A DNA stretch of 26,552 nucleotides from positions 1-26,552 of IMG/VR virus record IMGVR_UViG_3300021379_000903; one strand, 5' to 3'. Each line of letters begins with the position of its first letter. The first letter of the stretch is position 1. Below the pieces are notes generated by a model that made no database searches, was not told the origin of the DNA, and was given only the letters and a program-made list of their open reading frames with translations. Origin of the DNA: a virus. A program made the translations under genes and the position numbers. This document shows, piece after piece, positions 19,718-24,225 of the stretch.

Positions 19718-20527
19718 ATGAAGGATAAAATAAAAAACATACTCTCAAACAGGACTCTAGTGACATTTATCGCTGGAGCTCTTGTCGTATTATTGTTCTT
19801 TAGGCAATGTAACCAGATTTCAAATCTAAAACAAGATGTGAAATTTGCACAAGAGGATGCTGATAGAAACTTAAATAACTTTAAGGCAGCACAAGACTCA
19901 GTTACTATCTTAAGAAACGATAACGGCGATCAGTTAGCTGAGATTAGATCTTATGAATTTGATCTATCAAAGCTACAAGAGAGTCAGAAGGATTTAACAA
20001 AGAAGTACCAGAAGGCACTTGCGTTAAATAAGGATTTGAAAGAGGTTAACTCACTGATTTCTGCAGAGTTAGAGATTAAAGATAGCCTGGACGTAACGAC
20101 AACTACAGAGACGATTGATACTACTACAACTAAAATTACTTTCAGCTCAGAGAAAGATTTTGGTAATGGTAACTCAAGAATTTTATCTGGGTTCTCGACG
20201 ATAAAATATGACTTTGGACAATTTAAAGTTTTACAAAGTGAATTTGAATTAAAACAAACACTAAGCCTAATGGCTGCGATTGAAGCGGGTGAGGATGGAG
20301 CAGATAGACTAAAACTATCTACATCATATCCTGGTTTAGTGATTAAAGATATTGAAAATATTAATTTAGTCAATACTAGATTGAACAGAAGAGACGAGAA
20401 GAAATCAAGATGGTTAATCGGCTTTGGTGTTGGATATGGTGTTAACTTAAATAACGATCAGGTGATTAGCACCGGGCCTTCAATAGGCGTGGGACTTTAC
20501 TGGTCACCTAAATTTTTACAATTTTAA
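19718..20527 (+). CDS. Membrane-anchored coiled-coil protein, spanin-like candidate
   Basis: A 269-aa protein. Residues 1-11 are Lys-rich and residues about 12-27 form one hydrophobic segment (TLVTFIAGALVVLLFF), giving a likely N-in, C-out inner-membrane anchor. Residues 33-125 are a long charged coiled coil. Residues 126-140 are Thr-rich (DVTTTTETIDTTTT). The C-terminal 40 residues are glycine/aromatic and strand-like (WLIGFGVGYGVNL ... GPSIGVGLYWSPKFLQF) and end in Phe, as outer-membrane beta proteins do. This layout would suit a one-piece spanin that bridges the envelope in lysis, but no lipobox is present and no lysin is next to it. A tail-associated membrane protein is the alternative. 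It starts six bases after the fibre gene. Confidence 0.6.
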   Translation: MKDKIKNILSNRTLVTFIAGALVVLLFFRQCNQISNLKQDVKFAQEDADRNLNNFKAAQDSVTILRNDNGDQLAEIRSYEFDLSKLQESQKDLTKKYQKALALNKDLKEVNSLISAELEIKDSLDVTTTTETIDTTTTKITFSSEKDFGNGNSRILSGFSTIKYDFGQFKVLQSEFELKQTLSLMAAIEAGEDGADRLKLSTSYPGLVIKDIENINLVNTRLNRRDEKKSRWLIGFGVGYGVNLNNDQVISTGPSIGVGLYWSPKFLQF

Positions 20528-20530
20528 AAC

Positions 20531-22615
20531 ATGGCGCAGTCATCTAGATATTTTAAGATAGACCAAGACATCTTACTTGAGTTTATCTACCACGATCAGG
20601 GTAACCCGGAACCATATCGTATTGAAGTAGACGATAACGGTAGCGAGGTTATGTTCTTGGACGTGGAGCAGGGTAATCCATTTGGAACCAGACACTTGAT
20701 TAACGAGTTGGGTTCTGCTGTGGTGAACTTTGATGTAACAGAAGTATCTGGTTATCTGGCTGTTGAAAACTTTGCAGCTAGAACTTTACTACTGCAAAAT
20801 GGTAAGACATATAAGTTTGACTTAAGTGCTTTAACTAATCCAGCTGATTTTGCGATTAGCGGTGCGTTAGGTATTTACTCTTTCTCTCCAGTGACTAATA
20901 TCGCTGAATATACACCAACTCAAAATGGCACAGTAGAATATTCTTATCCTGGGTTAATAGGTGGTAAAGCGATCGTTGATACTAGAGCTAACCCTCTATT
21001 TGCTTCTCCAGACGAAGCAACCGGTAATGATATTAACCAAACTATTGGTAGATACCATGCAGTTAATGTACCTGGTGATGATAAAACTAAATATGCTTTA
21101 CTAGGTTACGACTCGACTGGCGACTACGAGATGCATAACTTTATTAACAGATCAATAGATTGGACTGGCTCAAAAGAGAACGACCTATTGAACTACCAGA
21201 CTGAAGCAACTGCAAATATCAACTATATACAGTATGATACTGTTAGACTACACTTAAGATCTGGATTTAGTTTTGCAGCAAGGGGTTACGAGGGCTTTCT
21301 ATTCGAGGTAACTACTGAAAGAAATACTAGAGTCAAAAACTTCTTAACTCAGTTAGTCTACTTAAATCAAAGTAACTATGAGTTCTCAAACCCTAAACCA
21401 TTTATTTTAGGTGAGACTCTGTGGTCTAAGTATATTAATATTAAAATCCCATCGTTAATCGGACAGAACCAAGAGTTCTTAGATAGATTCTACGGTGATG
21501 GTACAGTAGGCTCAAGTGATATAAATGAATTCTCTAACTACGGTATAGCCTTTAAGCTACTAGATAAATTAGAGACTGTTAATGGTTTCGACTACGTTTA
21601 TACAGGAGAAGAGAATGTATTTACAGTATCTAGAGAAGATGAGTACGCTGATTTTACAGTAGCGGTTGAAGACGCTGATGACGGAGATTACTTTAAAATC
21701 TACGGTGAGAAGGATAATTCAATCTCTGGGTTTGAGAGTAATTTACTGAATAGAATTCAAACTAGCTCAGATGATATTGTTGTTATTTATGAGATTGAGG
21801 TGTTCGAGCAAGTGGGTACTTCTTTTATTAAGACTTCCGATACGACTTTTACACAGTATGAAGACTTTAGCACACCTATCGTCTTTAGACCTGTAATTTC
21901 AAACGCTAATGTTGCTGTCAACTTTTCGATCGACGTAACGATGAGAATTTACAATCAAACAGATAATACTCAGATTGTAAAGAAAGCAGCGTTAACTGTA
22001 AACCACCCAGCAAAATATGGTAAGAAGTTATCTTCATTAAAGATTGATAATCCAAATATATTAACTGAAGTCTATAACGTACTACCTAGTCTGACTTCAA
22101 ATAAAACAATTTCAGGGTTTATCACTGATAACCTGCCTAGATCTGTTAAATACGTACCGACATTCATTGAAAGACATAATGTTATTGCTTCAAGCACTAG
22201 AGTAGATTTAACTGGATTGAGCTCAGGCAGTGGCGCAGGCGCTGGTATGTATGCTGACGTTGAAGAGTTAGAAACATCTGAGTTTGTTAACGAGGGAGAC
22301 CTATCGATTACAATACCTCCCTTTGCTACTTATATTAAATTTGTAGTTGCTAAGAAAAGAGGTGATGATTTCGAATTAGTAAACTTTGAAAACTCTGAGT
22401 TAGTTATTCTAACCTTTAATGATGGTAAAACAAAATTGAAGTTCAACCACGTCTATAACAAGGATATTGATATGGGTAAAGGTGAGGTCTTATTTAAGAT
22501 TAACGAACAGAATGCAAACACTATCAGAGGTATGCAAAACCGTGATTTCTATATTAGTTTAGATAACGGTGCTGATGAGTCGATGGTTACTAAAGGTAAA
22601 TTTACTCTTGGATAA
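20531..22615 (+). CDS. Virion structural protein, beta-rich
   Basis: A 694-aa protein without signal peptide, enzyme motif or coiled coil. It opens MAQSSRYFKIDQDILLEFIY and is mostly beta-type throughout. It contains segments such as SFAARGYEGFLFEVTTERN (about 250-270) and an Ig-like region (about 420-490, SFIKTSDTTFTQYEDF ... VNFSIDVTMRIYNQT). Residues 566-573 form a glycine-rich loop GSGAGAGM followed by YA, nearly the same as a loop in the 1233-aa protein. Its stop overlaps the next ATG by one base (TAATG), suggesting translational coupling to the tail-tube-fold protein. I infer a tail or baseplate component. The precise role is unknown. Confidence 0.7.
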   Translation: MAQSSRYFKIDQDILLEFIYHDQGNPEPYRIEVDDNGSEVMFLDVEQGNPFGTRHLINELGSAVVNFDVTEVSGYLAVENFAARTLLLQNGKTYKFDLSALTNPADFAISGALGIYSFSPVTNIAEYTPTQNGTVEYSYPGLIGGKAIVDTRANPLFASPDEATGNDINQTIGRYHAVNVPGDDKTKYALLGYDSTGDYEMHNFINRSIDWTGSKENDLLNYQTEATANINYIQYDTVRLHLRSGFSFAARGYEGFLFEVTTERNTRVKNFLTQLVYLNQSNYEFSNPKPFILGETLWSKYINIKIPSLIGQNQEFLDRFYGDGTVGSSDINEFSNYGIAFKLLDKLETVNGFDYVYTGEENVFTVSREDEYADFTVAVEDADDGDYFKIYGEKDNSISGFESNLLNRIQTSSDDIVVIYEIEVFEQVGTSFIKTSDTTFTQYEDFSTPIVFRPVISNANVAVNFSIDVTMRIYNQTDNTQIVKKAALTVNHPAKYGKKLSSLKIDNPNILTEVYNVLPSLTSNKTISGFITDNLPRSVKYVPTFIERHNVIASSTRVDLTGLSSGSGAGAGMYADVEELETSEFVNEGDLSITIPPFATYIKFVVAKKRGDDFELVNFENSELVILTFNDGKTKLKFNHVYNKDIDMGKGEVLFKINEQNANTIRGMQNRDFYISLDNGADESMVTKGKFTLG

Positions 22616-23166
22616 TGATATTAAATAGCAGAAATAACTCATTCGATTTTAGATTTCCTAGAGGCTTTATTCCAACTGAAGTAGCTGAGAAATATAAGAA
22701 GTATTTGAACAGAGTACCTGGTGGTCTGTTAGCAGAGCCAGTGGATTTTGTCAACTACTCTATTCAGGGTGTTAACATTCCTGGTATTACGTTTGACCCG
22801 GTTACTCAAGCGGATAACGATGGAACAACAAGATACCACAGAGGTGCAGTGCCAATTCAAAACACAATTGCTAGAGAGTTTACAGTCACATTTCAATTAC
22901 TAGATGGTTTTATTAACTACTGGATTATGATGGACACTCTACTGTACTATTATGCTAGAAGTACTGAACAGCCATATATCGAACCGTTCACACTAAGAAT
23001 CTTAGACGCGGAAGGTGCATCTGTGGCTTTCATGAAATTTGAAAAAATAATTCTAAACTCTATTAACGAGTTAAATCTAAACATGGCTGAGAATGTAGCA
23101 GACTTCTCTACATTTGAGTGTAATTTCTTTTACAATAAAATGAGCCTGGATTTAGAGATAGATTAA
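22615..23166 (+). CDS. Tail tube-fold protein (gp19/gp54-like tube or tube initiator)
   Basis: A 183-aa protein with features of the contractile-tail tube fold. It opens FDFRFPRGFIPTEVAEKYKKY. The middle has alternating strands (VNIPGITFDPV; EFTVTFQLLDGFINYWIMMD), and the C-terminal part has the pattern L-x-I-L-D-A-E-G ... I-x-L-N-S-I-N-E-L-N-L ... F-x-T-F-E-C-N-F-F-Y-N. In tube proteins the last two elements are the strand that sets the lumen and the closing strand. T4 gp19, gp48 and gp54 share this fold. Length (T4 gp19 is 163 aa) and its place next to baseplate genes fit either a tube protein or a tube initiator/cap. The choice cannot be made from sequence alone. Translationally coupled to the upstream gene by a 1-bp overlap. 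Confidence 0.62.
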   Translation: MILNSRNNSFDFRFPRGFIPTEVAEKYKKYLNRVPGGLLAEPVDFVNYSIQGVNIPGITFDPVTQADNDGTTRYHRGAVPIQNTIAREFTVTFQLLDGFINYWIMMDTLLYYYARSTEQPYIEPFTLRILDAEGASVAFMKFEKIILNSINELNLNMAENVADFSTFECNFFYNKMSLDLEID

Positions 23167-23180
23167 AAGATATATACATT

Positions 23181-23552
23181 ATGAAAACATTTAATGATTA
23201 CTTAGTTGAACAACAAATCACAGAGACTGATATGCAACTCTTACAAGAGGGATTACAGTCAGAGTGGACTCCTGAATTAGAGGAAAAAGTTGACCAAGCT
23301 CTAGAAGAGTTTGTAAGACAATATCACAATGAAAAGACTGGTGAATTTGATTTAGACAGACTAGAAGAAGATATTCTAAATGAAGGTCTACTAGGTTCAA
23401 TCATCGGTGGTTTAACTGGTTTCGCGTTAGGAAAATCTGTTGGTAAGATGATTGCTAAAGTACTAGGTATTCAGAAAGGTATATTCTACGATCTATTAAC
23501 CTCCAGACTAGTTGGTGCCGCTCTAGGTGCTGCGTTTGGTAAAAGATTCTAA
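23181..23552 (+). CDS. Probable internal head protein with capsid-targeting N-terminus and glycine-zipper C-terminus
   Basis: A 123-aa protein. It begins MKTFNDYLVEQ, close to the capsid-targeting sequence of T4 internal proteins (MKTYQEFIAE). Two sites fit the T4 gp21 protease rule (L/I-x-E before G/A): LQE-G at residues 21-24 and LNE-G at 66-69. Between them lies an acidic helical region (residues 25-68). After the second site, a 55-residue hydrophobic, cationic stretch is rich in small-residue zippers (GSIIGGLTGFALGKSVGK; LVGAALGAAFGKRF). I infer packaging into the prohead, cleavage, and release of a membrane-active or DNA-associated peptide. It starts 14 bases after the tail-tube-fold gene in an AT-rich leader. 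The alternative is an unprocessed small membrane protein. Confidence 0.6.
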   Translation: MKTFNDYLVEQQITETDMQLLQEGLQSEWTPELEEKVDQALEEFVRQYHNEKTGEFDLDRLEEDILNEGLLGSIIGGLTGFALGKSVGKMIAKVLGIQKGIFYDLLTSRLVGAALGAAFGKRF

Positions 23553-24225
23553 TTTGAATTTAGTTACTGTTGACTTCTCGCTTAATTCCCCTGGTATCTG
23601 TATCTGGTCGTCTGACACAAATAGGTATCACTTTATCTCCTATATTAAAGCTGGTTCAGGTACAAAAGCTGAACAAAAGCGACAAGAAGAAATAGGTACA
23701 TTTGAAGACGTAACCCTAGTCCACCAACCTGATTGGAAACTAGTTGTCGGTGACTACTCTAAGAACGAGTTCGCAAAAATCAAGAGATACATTAAGACTG
23801 CTGATGACATCATTAATCTGATTGTCAATATCACACAGACCAAACAAGATTATCATATTGCATTCGAGGGTACATCATACGGTTCTAAAATGGGAACTAA
23901 TAATATGATTGACATGGCTGCAGGTGCTGCTATTCTAAAAGAGCAAATGATTGCTCAGCTCGACGTCAAAAATCTACTGACCGTTGCACCTACTACAATT
24001 AAGAAACATGCTGGTAAAGGGAATATGAATAAGTTAGCTCTTTGGCATTCCTTTTTAGATAATGTATGTGAGAGTGATGAGTTAGCTAGCTCGCCGTTAT
24101 TTGCTTACTGTCAGAAAGAAATTGGAGAGGTGAAAAAAGTTCCGAAGCCTTTTGATGACCTTGTCGATGCCTGGTTCCTTAATCATTATTTGCTTCAGCA
24201 ACTTGGGGAAAATTTGCCAGACTAA
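23527..24225 (+). CDS. RuvC-like Holliday junction resolvase
   Basis: A RuvC/RNase H-fold nuclease that would cut four-way DNA junctions during recombination-dependent replication and packaging. All the expected acidic residues are visible, numbered from the GTG at 23527: D16 in VTVDFSLNSPG, E114 in AFEGTSYGS, and D201 and D204 in FDDLVDAWFLNHY. A basic segment (TIKKHAGKGNMNK, about 157-169) follows the second acidic motif. There is no ATG. GTG 23527 would overlap the upstream gene by 26 bp, while TTG 23554, one base after the upstream stop, puts the first catalytic Asp at residue 7, as usual for RuvC proteins, and is my preferred start. T4 itself uses the unrelated gp49 for this job. Confidence 0.82.
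   Translation: MLRLVKDSNLNLVTVDFSLNSPGICIWSSDTNRYHFISYIKAGSGTKAEQKRQEEIGTFEDVTLVHQPDWKLVVGDYSKNEFAKIKRYIKTADDIINLIVNITQTKQDYHIAFEGTSYGSKMGTNNMIDMAAGAAILKEQMIAQLDVKNLLTVAPTTIKKHAGKGNMNKLALWHSFLDNVCESDELASSPLFAYCQKEIGEVKKVPKPFDDLVDAWFLNHYLLQQLGENLPD

Follow-up and report, generated by a model that had tools for sequence, protein, structure and literature searches.

The closest described counterparts of the protein considered here are the internal proteins IPI, IPII, and IPIII of bacteriophage T4, with which it shares a KT[FY]xx[FY][IL]xE N terminus, a cut site at residue 10, small size, and a gp21-type protease in related genomes. Mutagenesis of T4 IPIII has assigned targeting mainly to residues 4 and 7 of the capsid targeting sequence (CTS) and processing to residues 8 and 10 (PMC9026906), and apart from the CTS the T4 internal proteins are highly diverse (PMC3012670). 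The protein described here, referred to below as the zipper protein, differs from them in that its mature part would be a glycine-zipper domain, in that it is core conserved and syntenic rather than variable, and in that it carries additional LxE sites, while some of its homologues have a capsid-arm tag. T4 gp67 and gp68 are likewise small, processed core proteins with an acidic N-terminal part (processing of the zipper protein is predicted), but both lack a zipper, and T4 gp67 lacks the CTS found here. The GxxxG ladder resembles the Pfam domains PF13488 and PF13441, whereas the LTSRLV motif and the phage context are peculiar to the zipper protein. The proteins gp7, gp16, and gp20 of P22 and the core proteins of T7 offer an analogy in the proposed role, i.e., leaving the head with the DNA and crossing the envelope, and no sequence relation to them was found.

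The window, by which we mean the whole 26,552-nucleotide stretch of viral DNA that was analyzed, carries the zipper-protein gene between a tail-tube-like gene and a RuvC-like gene, the latter being followed by a gp32-like gene. Rereading the sequence reproduced the open reading frame, motifs, and coordinates reported in an earlier sequence-only reading, namely, the MKTFNDYLVEQ start, LQE-G at residues 21 to 24, LNE-G at residues 66 to 69, and a C-terminal part of 55 residues (69 to 123). The features are as follows:

22615-23166, plus strand: tail-tube-like protein, upstream neighbor and synteny marker (phrog_45 tail tube, E 7.6e-5)
23181-23552, plus strand: zipper-protein open reading frame, whole gene (ATG start, 123-aa precursor, at least 199 family loci)
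23181-23210, plus strand: CTS, residues 1 to 10, MKTFNDYLVE, like T4 MKTYQEFIAE (conservation in 82 homologues; predicted cut after LVE10)
23241-23252, plus strand: LQE-G, residues 21 to 24, second predicted protease site (E23 in 84/84)
23250-23384, plus strand: acidic helical stretch EGLQxEWTPELE..., residues 24 to 68, candidate pro-domain or solubilizing part (moderate conservation, pN/pS 0.39)
23361-23369, plus strand: LEE, residues 61 to 63, alternative LxE site, lying 5 residues ahead of the zipper (61/84 homologues combine E63 with L at P3)
23376-23387, plus strand: LNE-G, residues 66 to 69, zipper-domain boundary, doubtful cut site (E68-G69 in 84/84)
23385-23549, plus strand: glycine-zipper domain, residues 69 to 123, with an invariant LTSRLV motif (most conserved segment, pN/pS 0.23)
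23554-24225, plus strand: RuvC-like Holliday junction resolvase, downstream neighbor, context only (phrog_159, E 7.1e-14)

Scanning of viral contigs recovered at least 199 relatives of the zipper protein, of which 85 distinct sequences were examined and 84 aligned, and a second scan with a divergent homologue as the query reached additional relatives. Full-length or domain-level homologues are present in the 462-kb genome LR756500 and in the Prevotella-infecting Lak megaphages. Scanning of bacterial and archaeal genomes yielded none. In the Tenacibaculum phages pT24 and PTm1 and in three larger megaphage records, the tube-like gene is present, but none of the open reading frames found directly after it encodes the zipper protein. 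Judging from the Lak and Tenacibaculum phage relatives, the host is probably a member of the Bacteroidota. A PDB profile search returned chance matches only, the window protein matched no PHROG family, and 1 of 48 homologues matched phrog_2667 (internal head protein) weakly (E 0.0025). Both Pfam matches lie below the curated cutoffs, with 20.6 of 25 bits for PF13488 (Gly-zipper_Omp; best stretch, E 4e-4) and 16 of 28.9 bits for PF13441.

The case for a head protein begins with its first 10 residues. Across 82 homologues, T3 and E10 do not vary, positions 4 (F/Y), 7 (Y/F/H), and 8 (L/I/V) are nearly fixed, and positions 5, 6, 9, 11, and 12 are variable; the strict CTS pattern is matched by 82 of 85 homologues, one of the three exceptions being merely an open reading frame with an extended start. 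Since this position-by-position conservation agrees with the T4 mutagenesis, we regard it as the strongest evidence that the CTS is functional. By chance, a CTS-like motif would be expected about 5e-5 times close to the start of any of the 17 open reading frames in the window. One homologue starts with MKTYEEFINE, to be compared with MKTYQEFIAE as read directly in the T4 record for IPII and IPIII. From these comparisons, we take the N terminus to be a real counterpart of the CTS of T4. Scanned over T4, the strict pattern matches IPII, IPIII, and gp61.1; P-SSM2 and HTVC008M give one match each, neither of them N terminal.

The third T4 match, gp61.1 (NC_000866.4, 18966-19130, minus strand; L351:1366-1530, L356), is a 54-aa hypothetical protein that starts with the CTS MKTFKEFIKE. 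After the LxE cut, it continues in register as a copy of the mature N-arm of gp23 (score of 82, reached in 0/5000 shuffles; the next best open reading frame in the compared 49-kb T4 stretch scores 50), and it looks like a head protein made of two tags.

If the zipper protein is packaged, the CTS is likely to be cut after E10 (LVE10), at a site homologous to the T4 internal-protein cut, where P3 is L or I in 81 of the 84 aligned sequences. This site was overlooked by the sequence-only reading, which had proposed two cuts, after E23 and after E68, releasing a 55-aa peptide. The first proposal agrees well with the family: P3 of E23 is L or I in 77/84 (92%), and the next residue is G or S in 79/84. 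E23 and E68-G69 are each present in 84/84. The second cut fares less well, as the residue at P3 of E68 is T in 53, V in 20, L in 5, I in 3, and M in 3 of the 84 homologues, so that L/I-x-E directly precedes G69 in 8/84 (10%). Because few homologues have L or I at P3, and because the predicted capsid-protein cut sites of relatives retain L-x-E (LYE-D, LNE-A, and LNE-N), the LNE-G of the window is partly private. With P3 mostly T or V, release of the exact 55-aa peptide (residues 69 to 123) is doubtful, and we put it just short of an even chance. On the other hand, phiKZ-type proteases are known to accept a different P3 (PMC9026906), and relaxed specificity at 68/69 is thus possible. An enrichment of LxE-G/A/S across all CTS-bearing proteins disappeared once the zipper family was removed and was dropped as evidence.

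Selection differs along the gene (pN/pS of 0.31 for the CTS, 0.53 for residues 11 to 24, 0.39 for residues 25 to 68, and 0.23 for residues 69 to 123; range over all segments, 0.23 to 0.53). The zipper domain, common also to LR756500 and the Lak phages, contains five glycines at i+4 spacing (G72-G76-G80-G84-G88), a ladder equalled in 0.8% of shuffles of the peptide, and a second short ladder (G112-G116-G120). The net charge is -15 over residues 1 to 68 versus +6 over residues 69 to 123, a contrast which suggests that the acidic first part may hold the zipper in a soluble or inactive form up to maturation. Hydropathy is moderate, with a 19-residue maximum of 1.40, under the usual transmembrane thresholds, and with an AlphaFold model of poor quality (mean pLDDT of 59), a membrane role draws no support from any fold. 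This hydropathy and the weak structural model are compatible both with insertion of the zipper into a membrane and with its absence, and membrane action of the zipper protein during entry can be put forward only tentatively.

The sequence-only reading called for a gp21-type protease and for other proteins with the same N terminus. Neither an S77 protease nor a gp23-type capsid protein was found in the 26.5-kb window fragment, but the protease (PF03420, gp21-type S77) is present in fuller relatives (G001-G003, G009, G020-G023, G026, and G027, on contigs of 51 to 205 kb), in LR756500, and in Lak, and from these we infer one for the window's own phage. In relatives, the protease is fused to a scaffold-like region and adjoins the gp23-type capsid gene, and most relatives that carry it also have the PF07068 (gp23-type) capsid protein. 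The search for a shared N terminus succeeded: a small acidic protein between the portal and the protease, in the place of T4 gp67, begins with the zipper-protein motif (KTFEEFIQE), and in G001-G003 the strict N-terminal motif is limited to this protein and the zipper protein, which in G001 reads RTF. A looser motif is 5.7-fold denser N terminally than internally (65/28,766 versus 145/364,516 positions; the count covers the window together with eight genomes or contigs, among which orthologues are not independent), and many of the N termini concerned belong to small proteins of unknown function. A C-terminal CTS-like motif, present in genes inserted ahead of the zipper gene, is only weakly enriched genome-wide (P 0.05).

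Two further proteins in these genomes may be mentioned. At G021:149872-150456, an unrelated protein of similar layout has the CTS-like start MKLFEEFIQD, then LLNEG, and then the hydrophobic-cationic stretch IFGWIKGLF. A cytidylyltransferase-like enzyme (PF01467; G001:55884-57746 and orthologues) carries the CTS-like end TFEAFLKNI in several relatives and is possibly a packaged enzyme.

The N terminus shared with the gp67-like protein could also mean that the zipper protein is itself a prohead core component like T4 gp67/gp68, which would aid assembly of the core and shell, be cut up, be mostly lost or retained in the head, and remain inert in the host. Universal conservation, the acidic helical middle, and the several LxE sites in the precursor would all suit such a role, but a hydrophobic cationic zipper as the most conserved segment is odd for a degraded core peptide, and the head block does not contain the gene, so we consider this explanation unlikely.

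Independent evidence placing the zipper protein in the head comes from three divergent homologues in which a copy of the capsid N-arm replaces the CTS. The zipper proteins of L156, L157, and G020 are without a canonical CTS and carry NVNGMGxVSLP...GSGD, which is the N-arm element of the capsid proteins of these phages, situated just past their predicted cut; the match was equalled in 0/3000 shuffles with the LR756500 capsid protein and in 2/3000 with that of G002. The element GMG...P...GSGD occurs also in small noncapsid proteins (G001:60646-61842, G002:46273-47451, G003:30620-31354, G021:61586-62098, G022:39820-40431, G023:123329-123790, and LR756500:265261-265644) and is possibly a shell-targeting tag.

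The position of the gene is an observation against a head role, since it sits beside a tail gene and outside the head block. Among 80 loci fetched via the tube-like gene, 73 zipper genes were recognized by pattern and 4 by eye, and the remaining 3 run out of sequence; the zipper gene is thus downstream of the tube-like gene in 77 of 77 testable loci, usually within 30 bases. This arrangement would be expected of a tail or baseplate-tip protein made together with its tube-like neighbor, the CTS-like start being coincidental. Such a coincidence is, however, difficult to reconcile with a CTS conserved position by position as in T4, with a capsid-arm tag that substitutes for it in some homologues, and with the insertion at the same spot of further CTS-bearing genes (in about 10 loci, one to three genes lie between the tube-like and zipper genes, mostly with CTS-like ends), and we regard it as highly improbable. 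Being universal and conserved where T4 internal proteins are diverse (PMC3012670), the zipper protein resembles in its behavior a core component serving a general function.

The insertion spot can be seen at L043:7037-7962, L188:2640-3787, L258:3554-4908, L292:1092-1523, and L303:3565-4593, where inserted genes have CTS-like N termini (KLFKQYVNE and KTFNQFINE) or a CTS-like C terminus (LLLFEQFINK). At L156:3321-6182 and L157:3198-6051, the zipper gene is followed by runs of genes, many starting with MKSLxxYLxE or similar, which are likely a cassette of head cargo proteins.

The identification as an internal head protein that bears a true CTS, already proposed from the sequence alone, is thereby retained as likely, on the strength of the CTS conservation, the S77 protease in relatives, the core-protein N terminus, and the capsid-arm tag. 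We envisage the following course: (i) the first 10 residues would attach to the prohead core and bring the precursor into the head of a T4-like marine phage; (ii) the S77 prohead protease would remove the CTS after E10 and probably cut after E23 too; (iii) the remainder would comprise the acidic helical segment and the conserved 55-residue zipper domain, possibly split at E63 or E68; and (iv) the zipper domain would exit with the DNA and reach the host inner membrane, most likely as a general genome-entry part rather than a strain-specific counter-defense. Taken whole, this reading, in which a conserved zipper protein would be packed in the head, processed, ejected, and active at the inner membrane of the host, appears to us reasonably probable. 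A holin, antiholin, or superinfection-exclusion protein made during infection would match the two glycine-rich hydrophobic stretches, the basic end, and a possible spanin-like gene upstream (19718-20527; weak Rz-like matches, E 0.012-0.032), but it leaves the CTS, the capsid-arm tag, and the invariance of E10 and E23 unexplained, sits poorly with the moderate hydropathy and with conservation above the level usual for such genes, and is the least probable explanation of all.

To conclude, the way in which contractile-tailed phages bring their DNA across the inner membrane is, to our knowledge, unsettled. It is conceivable, if rather speculative, that every phage of this widespread T4-like lineage with probable Bacteroidota hosts, reaching as far as Lak, packs a membrane-active zipper peptide, addressed by two interchangeable tags, the CTS or a copy of the N-arm, and ejects it with the DNA so that it forms or opens the inner-membrane passage. 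A universal, head-addressed, membrane-active-looking peptide would be a single testable candidate for this passage of DNA. More broadly, the zipper family suggests that CTS-type addressing labels a considerable number of cargo genes among uncultured phages, and a second tag, the copy of the capsid N-arm, may serve the same addressing job.
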